From positions 1-37,703 of IMG/VR virus record IMGVR_UViG_3300046171_000040: a DNA stretch of 37,703 bases; one strand, given 5' to 3'. Of the stretch, positions 241 to 24,765 are shown one piece after another. The stretch is from a virus. Both the position numbers and the translations under genes were made by a program. The notes under the pieces were generated by a model. The model did no database searches, was not told where the DNA came from, and saw nothing but the letters and a program-made list of their open reading frames with translations. The number at the start of each line of letters is the position of its first letter. The stretch's first letter is position 1.

Positions 241-1677
241 TCAACCAAGTGCGACACCCATCGCAATTGCGAACCCTTGAGATGCACCAGCGGCCGTCTG
301 AATACTACCATCATCAAACTGAATACCATTTGTTCCCACAACAACTTTACCAGAACCATTTGGTGTAAGGGTAATATTTCTATTAGATGTGGACACAATA
401 CTGTGAGTAACTACATCTAGGTTGCCTCCAAGTTGGGGAGAACTATCATCTGAGATATTTTGAATGCCAGCACCAGCAAGTGAACCTACAGATGCAAATG
501 CAAGATTACCAGAACCATCTGTCTTTAGAACTTGGCCTGCGTTACCGTCTGCTTGTGGGTGTGACAATCCGTCAATGATTACCTTACCAGAACCGTTTGG
601 TGTAATCGCAATATTACCATTTGATGCAGATACGATTGAGTTACCGTTAACATCTAAGTCGCCTCCAAGTTGAGGCGAAGAATCATCGGCAAGACTTGCA
701 ATACCAGATGCAGAAACAACAAGGTCTATTGTTCCATCACTATCTTGGTATGTTGCAGTAATATTTGTCTCTGTATTACTAGAGAACATTGCACCGACTG
801 TATCTTGAATAACTTCAGATAAGTCAATATCAGCAGAACCGTTAAATGCAACACCATGAATGTTTCTTGAAGTTGCAAGTGTTGTAGCAGTAGCTGCATT
901 ACCAGAAGTGTCTTGATTACCAGATGCATTTACGCCAGGCAAGTTTATATCAGCAGTACCATCAAATGATACTCCACCAATATTTCTTGCATTTGCGAGT
1001 GCAGTTGCAGTGTCAGCAACGATTGTTAGATTATTAACAAATGTTGCATTTACTCTACTATCAATCGCAGAGTTTACTCTTGCAGTTGTATGATAAAGAT
1101 TAGATGAACCTTCTGAAAGGTCATCCGTATCAAAATTTGTAAGGTTTCTTGTGTTTGTAAATGCAGCCCAACCCATGTTTCCATGTGCAGAACATTGATA
1201 GTGTAAGACAGAAGGTGTCGTATCTGAGACAATAATTTGTGTATAAGCACCAGCATTGCCAGGCGTTCCACTTGTCGTTACGCCTGTTGTAAATGCAGTT
1301 GCTTTAGCGGCATCTAGATAGAACAGTAAAGGGTGGCCAGAATTGGAAGAGTCACTCTGGTCAAACCGATATGTGTTCTTTGGAATTAAATGAAGATATG
1401 GTGAAAATACACCGTTAATTTTATACTTGTTACTAGAACCAGTACCGTGATATGGGTGGTCTGTGGTAGAAGTTGCAACAGTTACATAGAGTATCTTTGT
1501 TGCAGACTCATAGTCAGTTGCATAATGGTTTCCAACAGTAACAATCTCGTTACTGCCGTCACGCATATACATTTTACGGTCATATGTGTTAACCGCAAAT
1601 TCACCCTCTGCCAAGTCCGAAGTTGTTGGAATATTGGAATGAGTGTGTGACCTTTTAAGTTTAATATCCACAGCCAT
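241..1677 (-). CDS. Tail fibre-type structural protein with cupredoxin-like domain
   Basis: A 478-residue virion protein. Residues 1-50 are an adaptor (MAV..KLKRS, LAEGEFAVN, MYMRDGS) shared with the next gene upstream at 1700-3292. Residues 60-180 look like a cupredoxin beta-sandwich. H115 (SGHPLLFY), C162, H165 and M168 form a C-x2-H-x2-M loop, the spacing of the type 1 copper site of amicyanin. Similar domains occur in marine phage structural proteins, but metal binding is inferred. The second half has paired repeats: TA..LA..RNI.GV.F.G.ADI.L around 235-285, and two DDSSPQLGG..LDV...SIVS...TPNGSGKV units. The C-terminus FAIAMGVALG resembles the ends of two other fibre-region genes. Likely an adhesin or fibre component of the virion. 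A late promoter lies 19 nt upstream. Confidence 0.7.
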   Translation of the reverse strand: MAVDIKLKRSHTHSNIPTTSDLAEGEFAVNTYDRKMYMRDGSNEIVTVGNHYATDYESATKILYVTVATSTTDHPYHGTGSSNKYKINGVFSPYLHLIPKNTYRFDQSDSSNSGHPLLFYLDAAKATAFTTGVTTSGTPGNAGAYTQIIVSDTTPSVLHYQCSAHGNMGWAAFTNTRNLTNFDTDDLSEGSSNLYHTTARVNSAIDSRVNATFVNNLTIVADTATALANARNIGGVSFDGTADINLPGVNASGNQDTSGNAATATTLATSRNIHGVAFNGSADIDLSEVIQDTVGAMFSSNTETNITATYQDSDGTIDLVVSASGIASLADDSSPQLGGDLDVNGNSIVSASNGNIAITPNGSGKVIIDGLSHPQADGNAGQVLKTDGSGNLAFASVGSLAGAGIQNISDDSSPQLGGNLDVVTHSIVSTSNRNITLTPNGSGKVVVGTNGIQFDDGSIQTAAGASQGFAIAMGVALG

Positions 1678-1696: not shown

Positions 1697-1703
1697 TATT
1701 TAG
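1697..1703 (-). promoter_or_regulatory. Late promoter CTAAATA overlapping a stop codon
   Basis: CTAAATA 19 nt upstream of the ATG at 1677. Its TAA is the stop codon of the gene at 1700-3292. Confidence 0.7.
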
Positions 1704-3292
1704 AATGTACCGCCGTCAATACTCGTAGCAAAAGAGAGTGTATCGGAACTCGCCGTATAGGCTAAGAACCCATCGTTAGAACCACCACCATCAAGTGCAG
1801 ACAAAGTATTAGCGGAGTTGGCAACAAGCACAGAACCCTTTGCGATTGAAGTTAAACCAGTACCACCAGAACCTACACCAATCGTACTACCGTTCCAAGT
1901 ACCTGTCGTGATTGTACCTAAAGTAGTGATTGATGTCTGACCAACATAAGTTGATGCAATTGTAAGTGCGTTTGCAGATACCGTAATCTTATCTGCTGTT
2001 CCTACAACATCAATTGTGTTACCAGTTTTAGTTAAACCAGCACCAGCAGAAATCTGTCCAGCACCAGAGAATTGTTCAAAGGTAATGTTGGTTGTACCAA
2101 GTGTTGGTGTTCCGTTTGTAGTTAGAACAAAACCATTGTCTGCGTTTGCAGTACCTTCTTCAACGAAAGTAAATGCACCACCTGTTAATTCAGAGGCCGC
2201 ATCTGCGTCTGGTGTTCTGGTAAGAACGAATGCAGCAGAACCAGAACCTACGGTTGTTACCTTATAGAAACCGTTCTGTGTTTGTGTTGTTTGGTCTTTA
2301 ACAAGGACTCTATCACTAACATCAAGTGAAACACCGTCAACTGAGATTGCACCATTTGAACCAGCAGTAATTGTTCCGTTACCATTATTGTATGTACCAG
2401 AAAGGTTTGCTGTAGTTGCAACTCTTACAGATGCTTTAACATCAAGTCCGTTTGCAACTGCGTCAACATATGATTTGTTTACAAGAGAGTCATCACCAAA
2501 ACCACTTCTTGATTCGTAACCAGAAGGAACTGTTACTGTGCCTGTTCCATTTGGCGACATAATCAAGTTGCCGTTTGAGTTGGTTGTAGAAATTGTATTT
2601 GCATCAATTTGAACATTGTCAATTTTTGCAATTGTTACTGGTGTTGAATTACCAACCGTACCACCTTCAATTGCTGGTGCAGTCAGTGTCTTGTTTGTAA
2701 GTGTCTGTGTACCAGCAAGTGTTGTAACGGTGTTATCAATTGCATATGTAATTTCATTGTTCGATACAGTTGTATCAATACCAGTTCCACCAGTGAATGT
2801 AAGTGTCTCACTAGTGTTGAACGTATCGTTTGAACCACTATCGGCTGCAAGTGTAAATGCAGTCGAAATTGCACCAAACGATAATGCACCAGAACCGTTT
2901 GTTTTTAGAAACTCATTTGCATTTCCGTCTGCACTTGGTAAAGTAAATGCAACATTGGCGGCCAATGCATTCGGAGATTTAAGTTGAACATGGTGTGTAC
3001 CGTTGTTAGTACCTTCTTTTAATTCAATCGAACCACCAGTTGATGCGTTATTTCCTACAATTAAATCGTCTACTGCTTTGTTTGCGTCAACGATAATTGC
3101 AGAACTTGCTGTTAGTGTTCCTGCTGTGTGGTCAATCTTGTCATTAAAAGCCTTACCACCGATAAGTCTAACTGTAGAACCATCACCAATGTAAAGTTTA
3201 TTATCACCTTGGGTATAGGCTAATTCACCATCGGCAAGTGCGCCAGGAGCGGATGAACCAGTAGACCTTTTAATTTGTAATTGTACTGCCAT
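1700..3292 (-). CDS. Tail fibre-type structural protein
   Basis: A 530-residue, Gly/Thr/Ser/Asn-rich protein typical of phage fibres. Residues 1-50 match the adaptor of the downstream 478-residue protein (KRSTGSSAPGALADGELAY, KLYIGDGS). The middle holds TLAGTQTLTNKTLTAPAIEG, NGNLIMSPNGTGTVTVPSGY and a GLDVKASVRVATTANL / DRVLVKDQT...NGFYKV unit that is common in tail fibres. The C-terminal part has TTGTWNGSTI and GSGGTGLTSI, also frequent in fibre shafts. No enzymatic motif is seen. It probably forms a trimeric fibre or fibre-attachment protein. The start is the ATG at 3292 behind an AGGAAGAGAAAAA ribosome-binding region. Confidence 0.7.
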   Translation of the reverse strand: MAVQLQIKRSTGSSAPGALADGELAYTQGDNKLYIGDGSTVRLIGGKAFNDKIDHTAGTLTASSAIIVDANKAVDDLIVGNNASTGGSIELKEGTNNGTHHVQLKSPNALAANVAFTLPSADGNANEFLKTNGSGALSFGAISTAFTLAADSGSNDTFNTSETLTFTGGTGIDTTVSNNEITYAIDNTVTTLAGTQTLTNKTLTAPAIEGGTVGNSTPVTIAKIDNVQIDANTISTTNSNGNLIMSPNGTGTVTVPSGYESRSGFGDDSLVNKSYVDAVANGLDVKASVRVATTANLSGTYNNGNGTITAGSNGAISVDGVSLDVSDRVLVKDQTTQTQNGFYKVTTVGSGSAAFVLTRTPDADAASELTGGAFTFVEEGTANADNGFVLTTNGTPTLGTTNITFEQFSGAGQISAGAGLTKTGNTIDVVGTADKITVSANALTIASTYVGQTSITTLGTITTGTWNGSTIGVGSGGTGLTSIAKGSVLVANSANTLSALDGGGSNDGFLAYTASSDTLSFATSIDGGTF

Positions 3293-6066: not shown

Positions 6067-7203
6067 CTATAACTCCGCATCCGCAGTCCAGTGACCGAAT
6101 AAAGAAGCACTGGCCCAGTTGGCACCAATGCCTGTGTAACACCTAGTAGTATTTGTGCCAATTCTATCAAATGTGACACCACCAGTGCTTGTGGCACCAT
6201 TTCTCTGGTAATCCCAACTACCAGTTTGCCCTGTCGCTCGATACGCAACCATTGTCGATGCGGCTCGCTTTTCAACTTTGAAACTTGGACTAATAATAGC
6301 GTTGCCACTACCATCACCGTTTACGCTCCAGTTTTCTGTGCTGTTATAATTTGACACTCCTGGCGTAGCTCCATAGTCAAAAGATTTTTCATAATAGCGT
6401 TTACAAATCGCAAGCTCTTCTACAAATGAGCGGTGTTCAAAATCTGAAGCACTTTCGCCAACTTCTAATTGACATCCAGTAATATACGCAGTTCCACCAG
6501 TTGCTTGAAAATTAAAAGTTGCATCACTATGTTTCTGACCATAATTATTCAGTCTAAACCATGCATCTTGAGTTGCCGCTGCGGCTTGATTACTTCCAAA
6601 AAACCAATATATTTGAATTGCACTTGCTGTAACAGTTGTTCTCCAACCATCAGTGGTATTGGCAGGAATTAAGTGTGTTTTCTTTTCCCAAGTATCTGCC
6701 TGATTAATAGTAAACTTTGTATAGTAGTTACCATCTGAAGCACCGCTGACACTACTACTATCGTTTAATCTAAGTTGAAGAGTTCCAGTTCCAGCAACAG
6801 AAGATTTTATCCAATAAGAAAGTGTTGCTGGTTTCGCAGCAGCAGTTCCCCAACCCAAAGGATTTGCATTAAATGTTTCAATCTGTTGTTGAAATAATGC
6901 TATGCAATCGCTTCCAGATGGTGTTACACCACTTGAACTAACCACAGCCTTCAAACTATTTACAAATGTCTCACTAGCAGGAACATCTGTAACTTGAGAA
7001 AAAGTAGTAGATAGTGTACCACTACCTTGGTCTTGGTCACCCAAATATGACCACCTATCAACAGTATGATATTGGTTACTTCCATGACCTAATGCACTTG
7101 ATGTTGTGCCTCTCTGGGCCACTTGCATAGCGCCATTGATGACAAGATTCCTACGACCACTTACGTTATCTGTTCCTCTTACTTTTACTTTAATTAAACT
7201 CAT
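6067..7203 (-). CDS. Tail fibre protein, GRRNL family (copy 1)
   Basis: A 378-residue protein starting at the ATG at 7203, which overlaps the stop of the upstream gene (TAATG). The frame's further extension to 7221 lacks justification. Domains: short N-terminal adaptor; GRRNLVINGAMQVAQRG at about 16-32; a carbohydrate-binding-like beta-sandwich at 40-240 (DRWSYLGD, YWIKSSVAGTGTLQLRL, TWEKKTHLIP). Then comes a conserved block GCQLEVGESASDFEHRSFVE with EELAICKRYYEKSF, and finally a variable C-terminus ending WTADAEL. Three paralogues lie at 8659, 12186 and 23530. Conserved body plus variable end suggests a host-binding fibre tip. Confidence 0.72.
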   Translation of the reverse strand: MSLIKVKVRGTDNVSGRRNLVINGAMQVAQRGTTSSALGHGSNQYHTVDRWSYLGDQDQGSGTLSTTFSQVTDVPASETFVNSLKAVVSSSGVTPSGSDCIALFQQQIETFNANPLGWGTAAAKPATLSYWIKSSVAGTGTLQLRLNDSSSVSGASDGNYYTKFTINQADTWEKKTHLIPANTTDGWRTTVTASAIQIYWFFGSNQAAAATQDAWFRLNNYGQKHSDATFNFQATGGTAYITGCQLEVGESASDFEHRSFVEELAICKRYYEKSFDYGATPGVSNYNSTENWSVNGDGSGNAIISPSFKVEKRAASTMVAYRATGQTGSWDYQRNGATSTGGVTFDRIGTNTTRCYTGIGANWASASLFGHWTADAEL

Positions 7204-7556
7204 TATGGTTTCTCCGGCCATGTAACATCATCAAGTGATGTTGCACTATTGGTGATATCTCTAAGTGCTTGTCTGTATGTTTTCCAATCAGCGAAGTTGG
7301 ATACCGAACCACCTTCTTCTCTTTCTTTGATGACAACCCAATCTGTTTCTGCGAGTTTAGCGTTTCTTTCTTCTCTTAGATTCTCTAAATCTTTTGCAGT
7401 TTGAAGTTCTGCAGCCTTAGTATTAACGGCAGAGTTATCAAACTCTACAACATTATCATTGGTATCATATGCAACGAATGTTTCTCCATTTTGAATAACA
7501 TAGTAAACATTAGAATCTAATGCTTTAATTGCTTCATGTTTCATTCTTATACTCAT
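7203..7556 (-). CDS. Phage tail assembly chaperone-like protein (copy 1)
   Basis: A 117-residue protein. The C-terminal half has the pattern of the Phage_tail_APC family (PF16778): REERNAKLAETDWVVIKE, then DWKTYRQALRDITNSATSLD and VTWPEKP. The N-terminal half (NVYYVIQNGETFVAYDTNDN) differs from its paralogue at 9810, but the last 28 residues are nearly identical, and so is the DNA. It overlaps both neighbours (ATGA with 7553, TAATG with 6067), so it is translationally coupled to the fibre gene it precedes. Likely role: folding or attachment of that fibre. Despite the family name, a minor structural role is possible. Confidence 0.7.
   Translation of the reverse strand: MSIRMKHEAIKALDSNVYYVIQNGETFVAYDTNDNVVEFDNSAVNTKAAELQTAKDLENLREERNAKLAETDWVVIKEREEGGSVSNFADWKTYRQALRDITNSATSLDDVTWPEKP
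7234..7289. repeat. 56-bp direct repeat, copy 1
   Basis: Identical base for base to 9844-9899. It encodes the C-terminal WKTYRQALRDITNSATSL part of the tail-assembly-chaperone paralogue. Confidence 0.9.
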
Positions 7557-8658: not shown

Positions 8659-9786
8659 TTATATCTCCGCTTCTGCTGTATAATGATATCCAAGACCCTC
8701 ATCATTACCACCAGATACTACTAATCCACCAAATCCAGTTGTTCCTCTATGTTGAATACTATTCACACCTTGGTTAGCTGAATGATTAGTTCCAGTGGTA
8801 ATATCTGAAAGATTGTCAGCAGTTCCATTAAGAGAATAAATTGTAACAGTAGGTGTTGACCTCATTCTAGTTACAAACCGTGTTCCAGCATCCATTCTAT
8901 TAGATATATTAACTCCGTCAGTAGTATTTCTGGCAAAAACTGCACCAGCAGTACCATTGTGGCCAGGGGCATTGGTCATATTATAAGATTTTTGATAATA
9001 TCGTTCACAAGACGCAAGCTCTTCTGCTAATGAACGGTGCTCAAATTCTGTCGATACACTGCCAACTTCTAACTGCCAACCAGTAAGATAAATTTCATTA
9101 TTTGTACTATCTGCAAAATTTACTCCAGCACTAGAATAACGAACAGTATTATTACCAGTTTGCCATGTTGAGGTATTATGTGTTCCACTAGAATAATCAG
9201 ACCCTGCTGTTAAATATAAAGTCGCATAAAGTCCATCAGAAGCACCATTTACAATATTTTGTGCAGTATTGCCTGGCACAGTAATTATTTTCTTTTCCCA
9301 TGTATTAGTAGCATCAATTGTAAATGTCGCACCTCTATTATAATAAGTACCACCAGAATTTTTGTGTTGAAATTCTACAGTGACTTGGCCAGTTTTTACA
9401 GATTTAATCCAAAATGAAAAAGTTAATGATTCTGCACTAGATGTTCCCCACTTTAAATGTTGTACATTTTGTCCTTCAATTCTTTGTTGAAATATAAGAT
9501 AAGAAGCAGCAGCAACAGAAGTATCAGCCGAGGTGCAATTTAATTTATAACTATTTCTAAATCCTTCTTCCTCTGGCGATTCTGTAGATTGAGATAATTC
9601 CCATGTACCTAAATCATTAACTTGAAATCTAAACCTATCACAAGTGGAATAGGCATTAAAACTGGTTATACTACCTACTGTAGTTGCTCTCTGGGCTATT
9701 CTCATATCACCGTTGATGATAAGATTCCTACGACCAAGATTTGGTGTAACCTGTCCTTCAATTCCTTGTATTTTACTTAATGGCAT
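8659..9786 (-). CDS. Tail fibre protein, GRRNL family (copy 2)
   Basis: A 375-residue paralogue of 6067, 12186 and 23530. It starts MPLSKIQGIEGQVTPNLGRR, then NLIINGDMRIAQRA, CDRFRF, FSFWIKSVKTGQVTVEFQHK and NTWEKKIITVPGNT. The conserved GWQLEVGSVSTEFEHRSLAE and CERYYQKSY block ends the common body. The last ~110 residues (NAPGHNGTAG onward) are unlike the other copies until the terminal HYTAEAEI. This is the conserved-body, variable-tip arrangement of a receptor-binding fibre. A late promoter is 20 nt upstream, inside the end of the chaperone-like gene, giving this fibre its own transcript. Confidence 0.72.
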   Translation of the reverse strand: MPLSKIQGIEGQVTPNLGRRNLIINGDMRIAQRATTVGSITSFNAYSTCDRFRFQVNDLGTWELSQSTESPEEEGFRNSYKLNCTSADTSVAAASYLIFQQRIEGQNVQHLKWGTSSAESLTFSFWIKSVKTGQVTVEFQHKNSGGTYYNRGATFTIDATNTWEKKIITVPGNTAQNIVNGASDGLYATLYLTAGSDYSSGTHNTSTWQTGNNTVRYSSAGVNFADSTNNEIYLTGWQLEVGSVSTEFEHRSLAEELASCERYYQKSYNMTNAPGHNGTAGAVFARNTTDGVNISNRMDAGTRFVTRMRSTPTVTIYSLNGTADNLSDITTGTNHSANQGVNSIQHRGTTGFGGLVVSGGNDEGLGYHYTAEAEI

Positions 9787-12185: not shown

Positions 12186-13406
12186 CTATAACTCCGCAGA
12201 TGCCGTAAAGATTGCATAATGGTCTTCGTCATTTGAATTACTAACATTCCCTGTAGGATGAAGATTGAAGCCTCTGTCTCCAATATTTACTGCGCTGCCG
12301 TCATAACTTGCAAAAGAACCTCCAGTAATCTTTCCAGAAGTGCCACCATAGTGATACAAAACTATGGTAGGCTCTGACCGCATTGTCACAGGGTACTGTC
12401 CTGCACTCCAGAATGGTCTATTTGAAGTAGAAGTTCCTCCAGAAACAGACGCAGCACCTTTCAAATTATTTACGCTGCCCGATGCGCCGGGTGCTATATC
12501 GTAGTTGTAGCTTTTGCAGAAATACCGCTGACACAGAGTCAGTTCCTCGCCAAAGCTGCGGTGTTCAAAATCTGTGGCAGCATCGCCAAGTTCCCACTGA
12601 ACCCCAGTTACATAAAAGTTGTTACTTGTGTTATCCAAAGCGTTGACCTGACCAACAACACGGTTTGCTGATGTGGCAGAAGCCCAAGTCGTGTTTAATG
12701 TTCCGCTAGTAAAATTAGAACCAGCCGCCAACCACCACTGTAAAATTAAAGAACGTGCATTGTCGTTATCCATTGCGCCGCTTGTGTCGGCTGGAAACGT
12801 AACAGTTTTGTATTCCCAAGTATCAGCAGATGAAACAGTGTATGATTTACTTACTTGTCTAGTGTTGTCTGTATCATACAACTCAACTATGTAAGTGCCT
12901 GTCTTAGTGGTTTTAACCCAAAACTGCACAGTCACTTGTTCTGCGTTTGATGTGCCTTTTTTAATACTCTGTAGGTTTTGTCCTTCAAATGCTTGTCTAA
13001 AAATGTAACCATCGCCAGCACCCATAGCGGCATCGGCTGTAGTTACATCTAGTTTAAAACTTTTTGCAAACCCCTGGCCAGTAGGTACATCTGTTGATTG
13101 CTGTAAATTATATGCGGCACTGCCGCCAGTAGTAGCTACATCCCATCTATCCAAAGAATATCTGTTGCCAGAAGAAACAGATTGATTGCCTCTTTGATGA
13201 ACTTGCATGGCGCCGTTGATGATAAGATTCCTACGTCCAAGATTTAATGCCTTTGCAGAGGTTACTGCGTTATCGGCAACCTTTGCGGTTGTCACTGCAC
13301 CAGCAGCAATTTTTGCAGTTGTTACTGCACCATCCTCAAGGTCACCAACTTTAACTGTAGTGTCTGTGTTAAGAAGTTCTGCGAGATTTTTTGCGTTAGT
13401 TGCCAT
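12186..13406 (-). CDS. Tail fibre protein, GRRNL family (copy 3)
   Basis: A 406-residue protein. The N-terminal 55 residues hold DGAVTTAKIAAGAVTTAKVA and DNAVTSAKALNL repeats, almost the same as in copy 4. Then GRRNLIINGAMQVHQRGNQ, LDRWDVAT, VQFWVKTTKTGTYIVELYDT, TWEYKTVTFPADTSG, and the conserved GVQWELGDAATDFEHRSFGE / LCQRYFCKSY block. A variable ~120-residue C-terminus ends in FTASAEL. The ATG at 13406 overlaps the upstream stop (TAATG). Probable host-binding fibre; ligand unknown. Confidence 0.72.
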   Translation of the reverse strand: MATNAKNLAELLNTDTTVKVGDLEDGAVTTAKIAAGAVTTAKVADNAVTSAKALNLGRRNLIINGAMQVHQRGNQSVSSGNRYSLDRWDVATTGGSAAYNLQQSTDVPTGQGFAKSFKLDVTTADAAMGAGDGYIFRQAFEGQNLQSIKKGTSNAEQVTVQFWVKTTKTGTYIVELYDTDNTRQVSKSYTVSSADTWEYKTVTFPADTSGAMDNDNARSLILQWWLAAGSNFTSGTLNTTWASATSANRVVGQVNALDNTSNNFYVTGVQWELGDAATDFEHRSFGEELTLCQRYFCKSYNYDIAPGASGSVNNLKGAASVSGGTSTSNRPFWSAGQYPVTMRSEPTIVLYHYGGTSGKITGGSFASYDGSAVNIGDRGFNLHPTGNVSNSNDEDHYAIFTASAEL

Positions 13407-23529: not shown

Positions 23530-24765
23530 CTAGATTTCTGCATCTGCTCTGAAGTGATACAATAATGCTCTTTCCGATACCCCACTACCAGATGTGTTTC
23601 TAGGCAAGAAAGAAGTTGTACCGTTTTGAATAACTCCAACAGCACCAGAATCACCACCTGTATCGCCATGTGCAATTTGATTTGCTGTTCCAGCATACGA
23701 GTAAACTGTAACAGTAGCCGCCGCCCGTTTTTCTACTCTATAGTGTCCAGTATAATACCCATAGTTGCTTGGTGTTTCTCTGCCAACATATCGGTGGTCA
23801 GCACCTATTCCACCATTTGCACTGCCAGCTGCAGTTCCGTATGGATAGGTATGTTCATAATAGCGTTGACAAAGCAATAGTTCTTCCCCAAATGAGCGGT
23901 GCTCGAAATCTGTTGCCGAACTGCCTTGTTCAATTTGGACACCAGTAATATGAAAATTGTTTGCAGTATTATCTGCATGATTTACTTGACCAACTGCTTC
24001 ATCGCCAGTTGCATAGTTTTGCCATGTACTTTGCAATGAACCACTAGTTCTGTTTGAACCAGCAGACAAGTACCATGTAAATTGCCTTCCTCTTGTATTA
24101 TCATTGTTGATTGCATCATGAGTGTTGCCAGGAATAGTAATACTCTTATGTTCCCATGTATTACTTGCATTAATAGTGTAAGAAAATGCAACTTGTTTTC
24201 CACCTTCATCTTGAAAAACATTTACAATATTTGTACCAGTTTTGGTTGCTTTAACCCAGAAAGATATAGTTACTGGTGCCGGACTTGAAGTTCCAGTTCT
24301 TAATCTTTGTAAATCATGACCCTCAATACGGTATTGCAATTGTATATATGAACCGGCACTAAGTGAACCATTTGCAGTTGTGCAATCCATCTTTAATGCT
24401 TTAGTGTGTCCATGTTGCACAAATGGTGGGTCTGTAACTGCTAATGTTTCTTGAGTTTGTGTCCATGTTCCAGAAGTATCTATTGCAAGTCTCCACCTAT
24501 CACAAGTATGATATGACCCACCAGAAGATATACTAGAAACCGAAGTTGCTCTCTGGGCCACTTGCATACCGCCGTTGATAGCAAGATTCCTACGACCAAG
24601 GTTTAGTGCCTTTGCAGAAGTTACAGCATTATCAGCAATCTTTGCAGTTGTCACCGAACCATCTGGAATTGCAGTGATATCGGCATCAACCGCACCAGCA
24701 GGAATCTTTGCAGCAGTTACAGCATCATTTGCGATTGCGTTTGTACCAATAGTATCAATTGCCAT
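23530..24765 (-). CDS. Tail fibre protein, GRRNL family (copy 4)
   Basis: A 411-residue protein. Residues 1-55 carry NDAVTAAKIPAGAV, DGSVTTAKIADNAVTSAKAL repeats nearly identical to copy 3. Then GRRNLAINGGMQVAQRATS, CDRWRLAID, VTISFWVKATKTGTNIVNVF, TWEHKSITIPGNTHD and GVQIEQGSSATDFEHRSFGE / LCQRYYEHTY. The C-terminal ~110 residues differ from all other copies and end YHFRADAEI. Unlike copies 1-3 it sits inside the baseplate gene block, before gp8. Probable receptor-binding fibre. Confidence 0.72.
   Translation of the reverse strand: MAIDTIGTNAIANDAVTAAKIPAGAVDADITAIPDGSVTTAKIADNAVTSAKALNLGRRNLAINGGMQVAQRATSVSSISSGGSYHTCDRWRLAIDTSGTWTQTQETLAVTDPPFVQHGHTKALKMDCTTANGSLSAGSYIQLQYRIEGHDLQRLRTGTSSPAPVTISFWVKATKTGTNIVNVFQDEGGKQVAFSYTINASNTWEHKSITIPGNTHDAINNDNTRGRQFTWYLSAGSNRTSGSLQSTWQNYATGDEAVGQVNHADNTANNFHITGVQIEQGSSATDFEHRSFGEELLLCQRYYEHTYPYGTAAGSANGGIGADHRYVGRETPSNYGYYTGHYRVEKRAAATVTVYSYAGTANQIAHGDTGGDSGAVGVIQNGTTSFLPRNTSGSGVSERALLYHFRADAEI

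Follow-up and report, generated by a model that had tools for sequence, protein, structure and literature searches.

What is a set of type 1 copper ligands doing in the tail fibre of a phage? The question is raised by one gene of a 37.7 kb virus record (hereafter the window, i.e. the whole stretch of DNA that was analysed), which carries T4-type tail genes: a baseplate wedge, a hub/lysozyme, several fibre genes and an L-shaped-fibre assembly protein. An earlier note had proposed that the residues H115, C162, H165 and M168 of a fibre-type protein are a complete type 1 copper ligand set within a cupredoxin-like domain. All four are present and correctly numbered in the 478-aa translation, and the stretch C162-S-A-H165-G-N-M168 indeed follows the claimed C-x2-H-x2-M pattern, which is the ligand-loop spacing of amicyanin. 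The C-x2-H-x4-M spacing given in the same note for plastocyanin was likewise seen in the P-SSM2, S-CAM4 and Prochlorococcus proteins fetched. The coordinates of the features are collected in Table 1.

Table 1. Features of the fibre-type gene and its neighbour in the window, with the evidence for each
Feature	Position	Strand	Evidence
Fibre-type protein with the domain, 478 aa, ATG start	241..1677	-	ORF; PHROG tail fibre profiles
N-terminal fibre adaptor, residues 1-49	1531..1677	-	48% identity over 42 aa to the start of the neighbour 1700-3292
Cupredoxin-like domain, residues about 55-184	1126..1515	-	AlphaFold2, Foldseek, VIA, profile bridge to PF00127 proteins
Codon of H115, proposed first copper ligand	1333..1335	-	48/48 copies under 90% identity
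Codon of C162, proposed thiolate ligand	1192..1194	-	46/46 covering copies
Codon of H165, proposed second His ligand	1183..1185	-	46/46 covering copies; absent from 9/9 degenerate domains
Codon of M168, proposed axial ligand	1174..1176	-	46/46 covering copies
Fibre shaft and repeats, residues 190-478 and stop	241..1110	-	PHROG tail fibre matches from residue 198 on
Neighbouring fibre-type protein, same adaptor, without cupredoxin-like domain	1700..3292	-	PHROG tail and virion profiles; adaptor match

The position of the domain between a fibre adaptor and fibre repeats, also claimed at first reading, is supported by PHROG profiles and by the neighbouring genes. Profile phrog_30742 (tail fiber protein) covers residues 51-179 of the 478-aa protein with an E-value of 3.6e-64, and phrog_693, of the same name, covers residues 66-174; the names of both profiles are silent on cupredoxin or copper. 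With its fibre profiles and its tail gene neighbourhood, the protein has the features of a T4-type fibre, and its domain-bearing relatives are annotated as fibre proteins, some of them being labelled virion structural protein (labels as given). The lone HxH of the protein is H11-T-H13 in the fibre adaptor (window 1639-1647). Compared as a whole with Pfam and NCBIfam, the 478-aa protein gave only noise. Elsewhere in the window, four separate genes (6067-7221, 8659-9786, 12186-13406 and 23530-24765) match the C-terminal part of the tail fibre profile phrog_4492, and because they match the same part, the uncultured window phage may have several alternative fibre ends.

Structure prediction, one of the checks suggested by the earlier note, returned a cupredoxin fold with the four ligands at cupredoxin places. 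The input to AlphaFold2 was an alignment (A1) of 71 rows, each with 95 or more aligned letters and all below 90% identity; the 'phages' loci L081-L093 were left out. The domain (about residues 55-184) was modelled with a pLDDT of 91.8, a pTM of 0.85 and eight strands, forming a Greek-key beta sandwich as in the cupredoxin fold superfamily. H115 (model residue 61) stands immediately ahead of strand 63-66, C162 (model residue 108) is the final residue of the next-to-last strand 103-108, and H165 and M168 lie in the loop preceding strand 116-119, an arrangement which we take to be the cupredoxin layout. Against solved structures, Foldseek ranked rusticyanin first (E 1.5e-3, prob 1.00), followed by nitrite reductase, pseudoazurin and laccases. 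In our reading, 48/50 of the matches listed have the cupredoxin fold, and the SO1698 peptidase accounts for the remaining two. These matches are distant, with TM values of about 0.4-0.5, and none among the solved structures falls below E 0.001. The VIA comparison gave a Z of 9.4 over 106 residues at 4.2 A to the N-terminal domain of 2dv6, and the other matches among those listed range from Z 7.3 to 9.3, where a value under 8 may reflect merely a common arrangement. Models of viral proteins yielded 64 fold matches at E up to 0.001, with the domain in many cyanophage fibres. Giant-virus proteins named 'Beta-sandwich' (Pithovirus, Marseillevirus LCPAC/LCMAC; BFVD A0A481Z6J5, A0A481Z7Q7, A0A481YY19 and A0A481YWX9) also match the predicted fold, with E-values of 5e-7 to 1e-8.

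At the sequence level, a bridging group is needed because the direct match of the window family to plastocyanins is weak. The window domain alone has no match to PF00127 (Copper-bind) in a Pfam scan, and a single-sequence PDB search with the window protein gave nothing useful (best 1x94, E 0.19). PF00127 weakly matches 7/71 A1 members (best E 0.012); a Woeseiaceae protein with the window's own domain type reaches E 7e-4, and a cellular relative scores 20.4 bits versus a cut-off of 21.2. A search for PF00127 in ten records gave 18 places. True plastocyanins are matched, including PetE of P-SSM2 (181103-181447), and so are an internal domain of the P-SSM2 'T4-like proximal tail fiber' (E 1.8e-4) and large proteins of S-CAM4 and P-TIM68 (E 2.2e-4 and 0.007), which adjoin virion structural and baseplate genes. 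The bridging group of cyanophage and cellular proteins (A2) takes in 6/7 of the places listed across six loci, the one omitted being a degenerate second copy in L262, and the group of small PF00127 proteins (A3) holds 7/8, with L254 dropped for not matching the motif pattern; the weak PF00127 places L260, L261, L263 and L264 are in neither. Two A2 members from marine genomes exceed the Pfam cut-off of PF00127, and most bridging-group domains share GHPFYIKT...YYYxCxxHxxMxG or nearly so.

In single profile comparisons, as distinct from database searches, A1 matched A2 with a probability of 98.5% and A2 matched A3 with 97.3%, against 41% for A1 and A3 directly. Searched in the PDB, A2 finds plastocyanin, rusticyanin, pseudoazurin and amicyanin with E-values of 1e-4 to 3e-3 (best 1.4e-4). 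Amicyanin 1sfd (E 6e-4) is found by A2 and not by A1, as are many other blue copper proteins; the best PDB match of A1, pseudoazurin, is non-significant (E 0.065). Because PF00127 guided the choice of A2, the resemblance of this group to copper proteins is in part a product of selection, and the independent link is the one from A1 to A2. By itself, A1 finds the P-SSM2 proximal-fibre domain with an E-value of 1.4e-5. Carbohydrate-binding and Ig labels from Pfam, which are weak and scattered among A1 members, were rejected. PF25489 (At5g54830-like domain) matches 14/71 A1 members weakly (best E 0.0024) and L086 with an E-value of 0.0031, possibly marking a eukaryotic branch of the domain family.

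The conservation of the four residues, proposed as a second check, was read from 267 domain rows (162 from marine viral contigs, 72 from genomes, 32 from phages and the window itself). The His, Cys, His, Met order of type 1 (blue) copper proteins (HCHM) is present in 256/267 rows, of which the viral-contig and genome loci were retrieved with peptide patterns, some overlapping the C-H-M loop, and the 'phages' loci by tblastn without peptide patterns; 22/32 phage rows are HCHM. The loop reads C-x2-H-x2-M in 255 of the 256 HCHM rows and C-x2-H-x3-M in the remaining one. As for domain copies under 90% identity, H115 is found in 48/48 and C162, H165 and M168 in all 46 that cover them, and the other histidines of the domain drift (H74 in 39/48, H77 in 18/48, H96 in 4/48 and H159 in 25/48). 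A 36-row column count used rows preselected as HCHM and carries no weight for the four ligands. Both synonymous codons are freely used at the His sites (CAT/CAC 133/123 and 136/120) and at the Cys site (TGT/TGC 170/86), so it is the residue that is kept and not the DNA. A chance or DNA-level origin of the four residues was rejected in view of conservation and codon use.

Of the 11 rows without HCHM, one (L221) is truncated where its contig stops and ten belong to nine degenerate domains, all nine of which come from the tblastn 'phages' loci. Five are second copies in one large cyanophage protein family (L091, L092, L093, L274 and L280), three are alike (S-WAM1, S-SZBM1 and P-RSM6; L276, L277 and L279), and the last stands alone as a protein of about 112 aa in cyanophage PSS2 (L278:2480-2818), with D, A, T and M at the ligand places. 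As they form three groups, the nine perhaps represent three events. With the ligand loops judged by eye from the sequences, H165 and at least one further ligand are missing in all nine; H115 is kept in six, the Cys in one and the Met in one. Because each of these domains lacks at least two ligands, the site is either kept whole or dismantled. Random loss of ligands, which would have spoken against a metal site, was rejected, every departure except the contig-end cut lacking two or more and none being the loss of a single ligand. Judging from these degenerate sequences, the beta sandwich can persist in virion proteins without the metal site.

When the window domain was used as a tblastn query, 31/50,697 phage records were found, and the domain of Synechococcus phage S-B68 found 70/50,697. 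The named hosts of domain-bearing phages are mostly Synechococcus and Prochlorococcus, and also Pelagibacter and Methylophilales. A1 matches 20/20 phage records tested at E up to 0.01, as expected because these records were chosen for carrying the domain. Some cyanophages have several window-type domains per genome: P-SSM2 and P-HM1 have five A1 places each, some of them weak, and three of the five in P-SSM2 fall within two tail-fibre genes. Two scans of viral contigs gave 513 and at least 594 relatives, 80 of which were kept from each. Within the open frames, the domain can start anywhere between the first 50 residues and a point past residue 700, indicating that it moves as a unit.

In 84,980 species genomes, one scan found 72 loci, whose titles point mostly to marine single cells or metagenome bins. 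Phage contigs caught up in cell assemblies probably account for some of the 72, e.g. L218 with a T7-type fibre N-terminus, and others look cellular, such as SAR86 proteins with a lipoprotein-like start and marine archaeal collagen-like proteins. The small SAR86 proteins (L212:3779-4279, L240:3725-4273 and L210:2521-3066) are largely this domain, with HCHM kept, and the L240 protein has no Pfam match. In the marine archaeal (Euryarchaeota/MGII) proteins (L225:3026-4303, L220:3194-4312 and L213:3305-4312), the domain stands at the end, after long collagen-like G-x-y stretches. The domain, which has no family name in the Pfam copy searched, occurs in surface-type proteins of SAR86, marine archaea and Bacteroidetes.

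These cellular copies and the degenerate domains bear on the main rival to a copper site on the fibre, namely that the domain is a cupredoxin by descent whose present task in the fibre is that of a rigid spacer or binding sandwich, holding a different or structural ion (e.g. zinc or Cu(I)) and having no role at the host surface. Such a use would suit the fusion of cellular copies to structural and adhesive parts (collagen-like, cadherin, Ig-like) as well as the fibres that retain the fold without the site. However, a full Cys-His2-Met set whose loop spacing stays constant is that of type 1 copper, and relatives of the domain reach PF00127, so that we regard this explanation as unlikely, albeit a serious contender.

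Small blue copper proteins (PF00127; plastocyanin, pseudoazurin and amicyanin) and rusticyanin share with the window domain the predicted fold, the His...Cys-His-Met set and a Cys that ends the next-to-last strand. In contrast to the small blue copper proteins, the window-type domain is longer, has a P where an N usually follows the first ligand (H-P, not H-N), sits fused inside a fibre and gives no PF00127 match itself. The PetE plastocyanin of cyanophages (P-SSM2 PSSM2_230) is likewise a phage-encoded blue copper protein, but it is stand-alone and soluble, has the C-x2-H-x4-M loop and lies outside any fibre gene. P-SSM2 encodes this soluble plastocyanin plus window-type domains in two tail-fibre genes. 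According to PMC3037559, PetE is known in cyanophages and is thought to serve photosynthesis. The HxH iron-binding fibres (T4 gp37, Alteromonas phage R22Y) offer a second comparison, with metal proposed or shown on phage fibres (PMC11705849). These are trimeric fibres in which HxH motifs bind octahedral iron, whereas the window protein has a Cys-His2-Met set within one sandwich domain; the 478-aa protein, with one HxH, does not have the motif repeated along the fibre.

From the residues, their conservation, the predicted fold and the fibre-type context, we infer that the domain is probably a divergent cupredoxin that has a type 1-like site for copper and is displayed on the virion, where it would be a module of the fibre or one that faces receptors. 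In our judgement, the predicted site is very likely able to bind copper in the test tube. Since the domain has the build of a blue copper protein with its four ligands intact, as have most relatives from other ocean phages and microbes, the fibres of marine virus particles may bear copper, and we lean towards the view that those of native virions do. In the proposed mechanism, the divergent cupredoxin, flanked in this T4-type phage fibre protein by adaptor and shaft repeats, would use its four conserved residues to build a type 1-like copper site with the short C-x2-H-x2-M loop. Because free copper is scarce in the cytoplasm, the fibre would be expected to fold copper-free in the cytoplasm of the host, and because cupredoxin metal sites are largely pre-formed, copper could be taken up late, after lysis or at the surface of the next host. 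Copper would then fix the exposed loop of ligands in a surface module facing receptors or partners, and a fibre or receptor-facing module with its loop held by metal is the most likely use.

Both a copper lure and a redox function seem less probable than either this module or a different structural ion. As a copper Trojan horse, the copper-bearing fibre would be recognised by a host uptake system for copper or cuproproteins, and adsorption would thereby be promoted. Iron on marine phage fibres has been proposed to act in this way, as an iron Trojan horse (PMC11705849), and cyanobacteria, Pelagibacter and Methylophilales are among the hosts of phages with the domain. However, these hosts are very diverse, no receptor is known, and the window domain lies near the adaptor end and not at the fibre tip, all of which make a lure improbable. 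Least probable is a redox module, in which the virion site would swap electrons with host surface carriers or quench reactive oxygen: fold and ligand set are shared with the electron carriers rusticyanin and plastocyanin, but a redox partner is absent among the window proteins scanned, and the cellular relatives carry adhesive, collagen-like or protease companions.

To our knowledge, iron and zinc are the main metals known from the fibres and spikes of phages. No paper linking cupredoxins with phage fibres was found in a search of the main text of open-access papers, some judged by title among those listed, which leaves absence from print unproven. Cyanophage PetE and the proposed iron on marine phage fibres were already known; as this search found no such link, a cupredoxin as a module of the virion fibre is taken to be a new use of a known kind of protein. 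A Cys-His2-Met cupredoxin site on the fibres of cyanophages and pelagiphages would be new virion metal chemistry, and it could tie phage adsorption to marine copper. The furthest-reaching idea, that marine phage particles are copper proteins whose type 1 fibre sites fill with copper in sea water or at the cell and employ it in host attachment, seems doubtful to us; if true, such virions would be to copper what the iron Trojan horse is to iron, and the copper bound to them would be a store in the ocean that has gone unrecorded.
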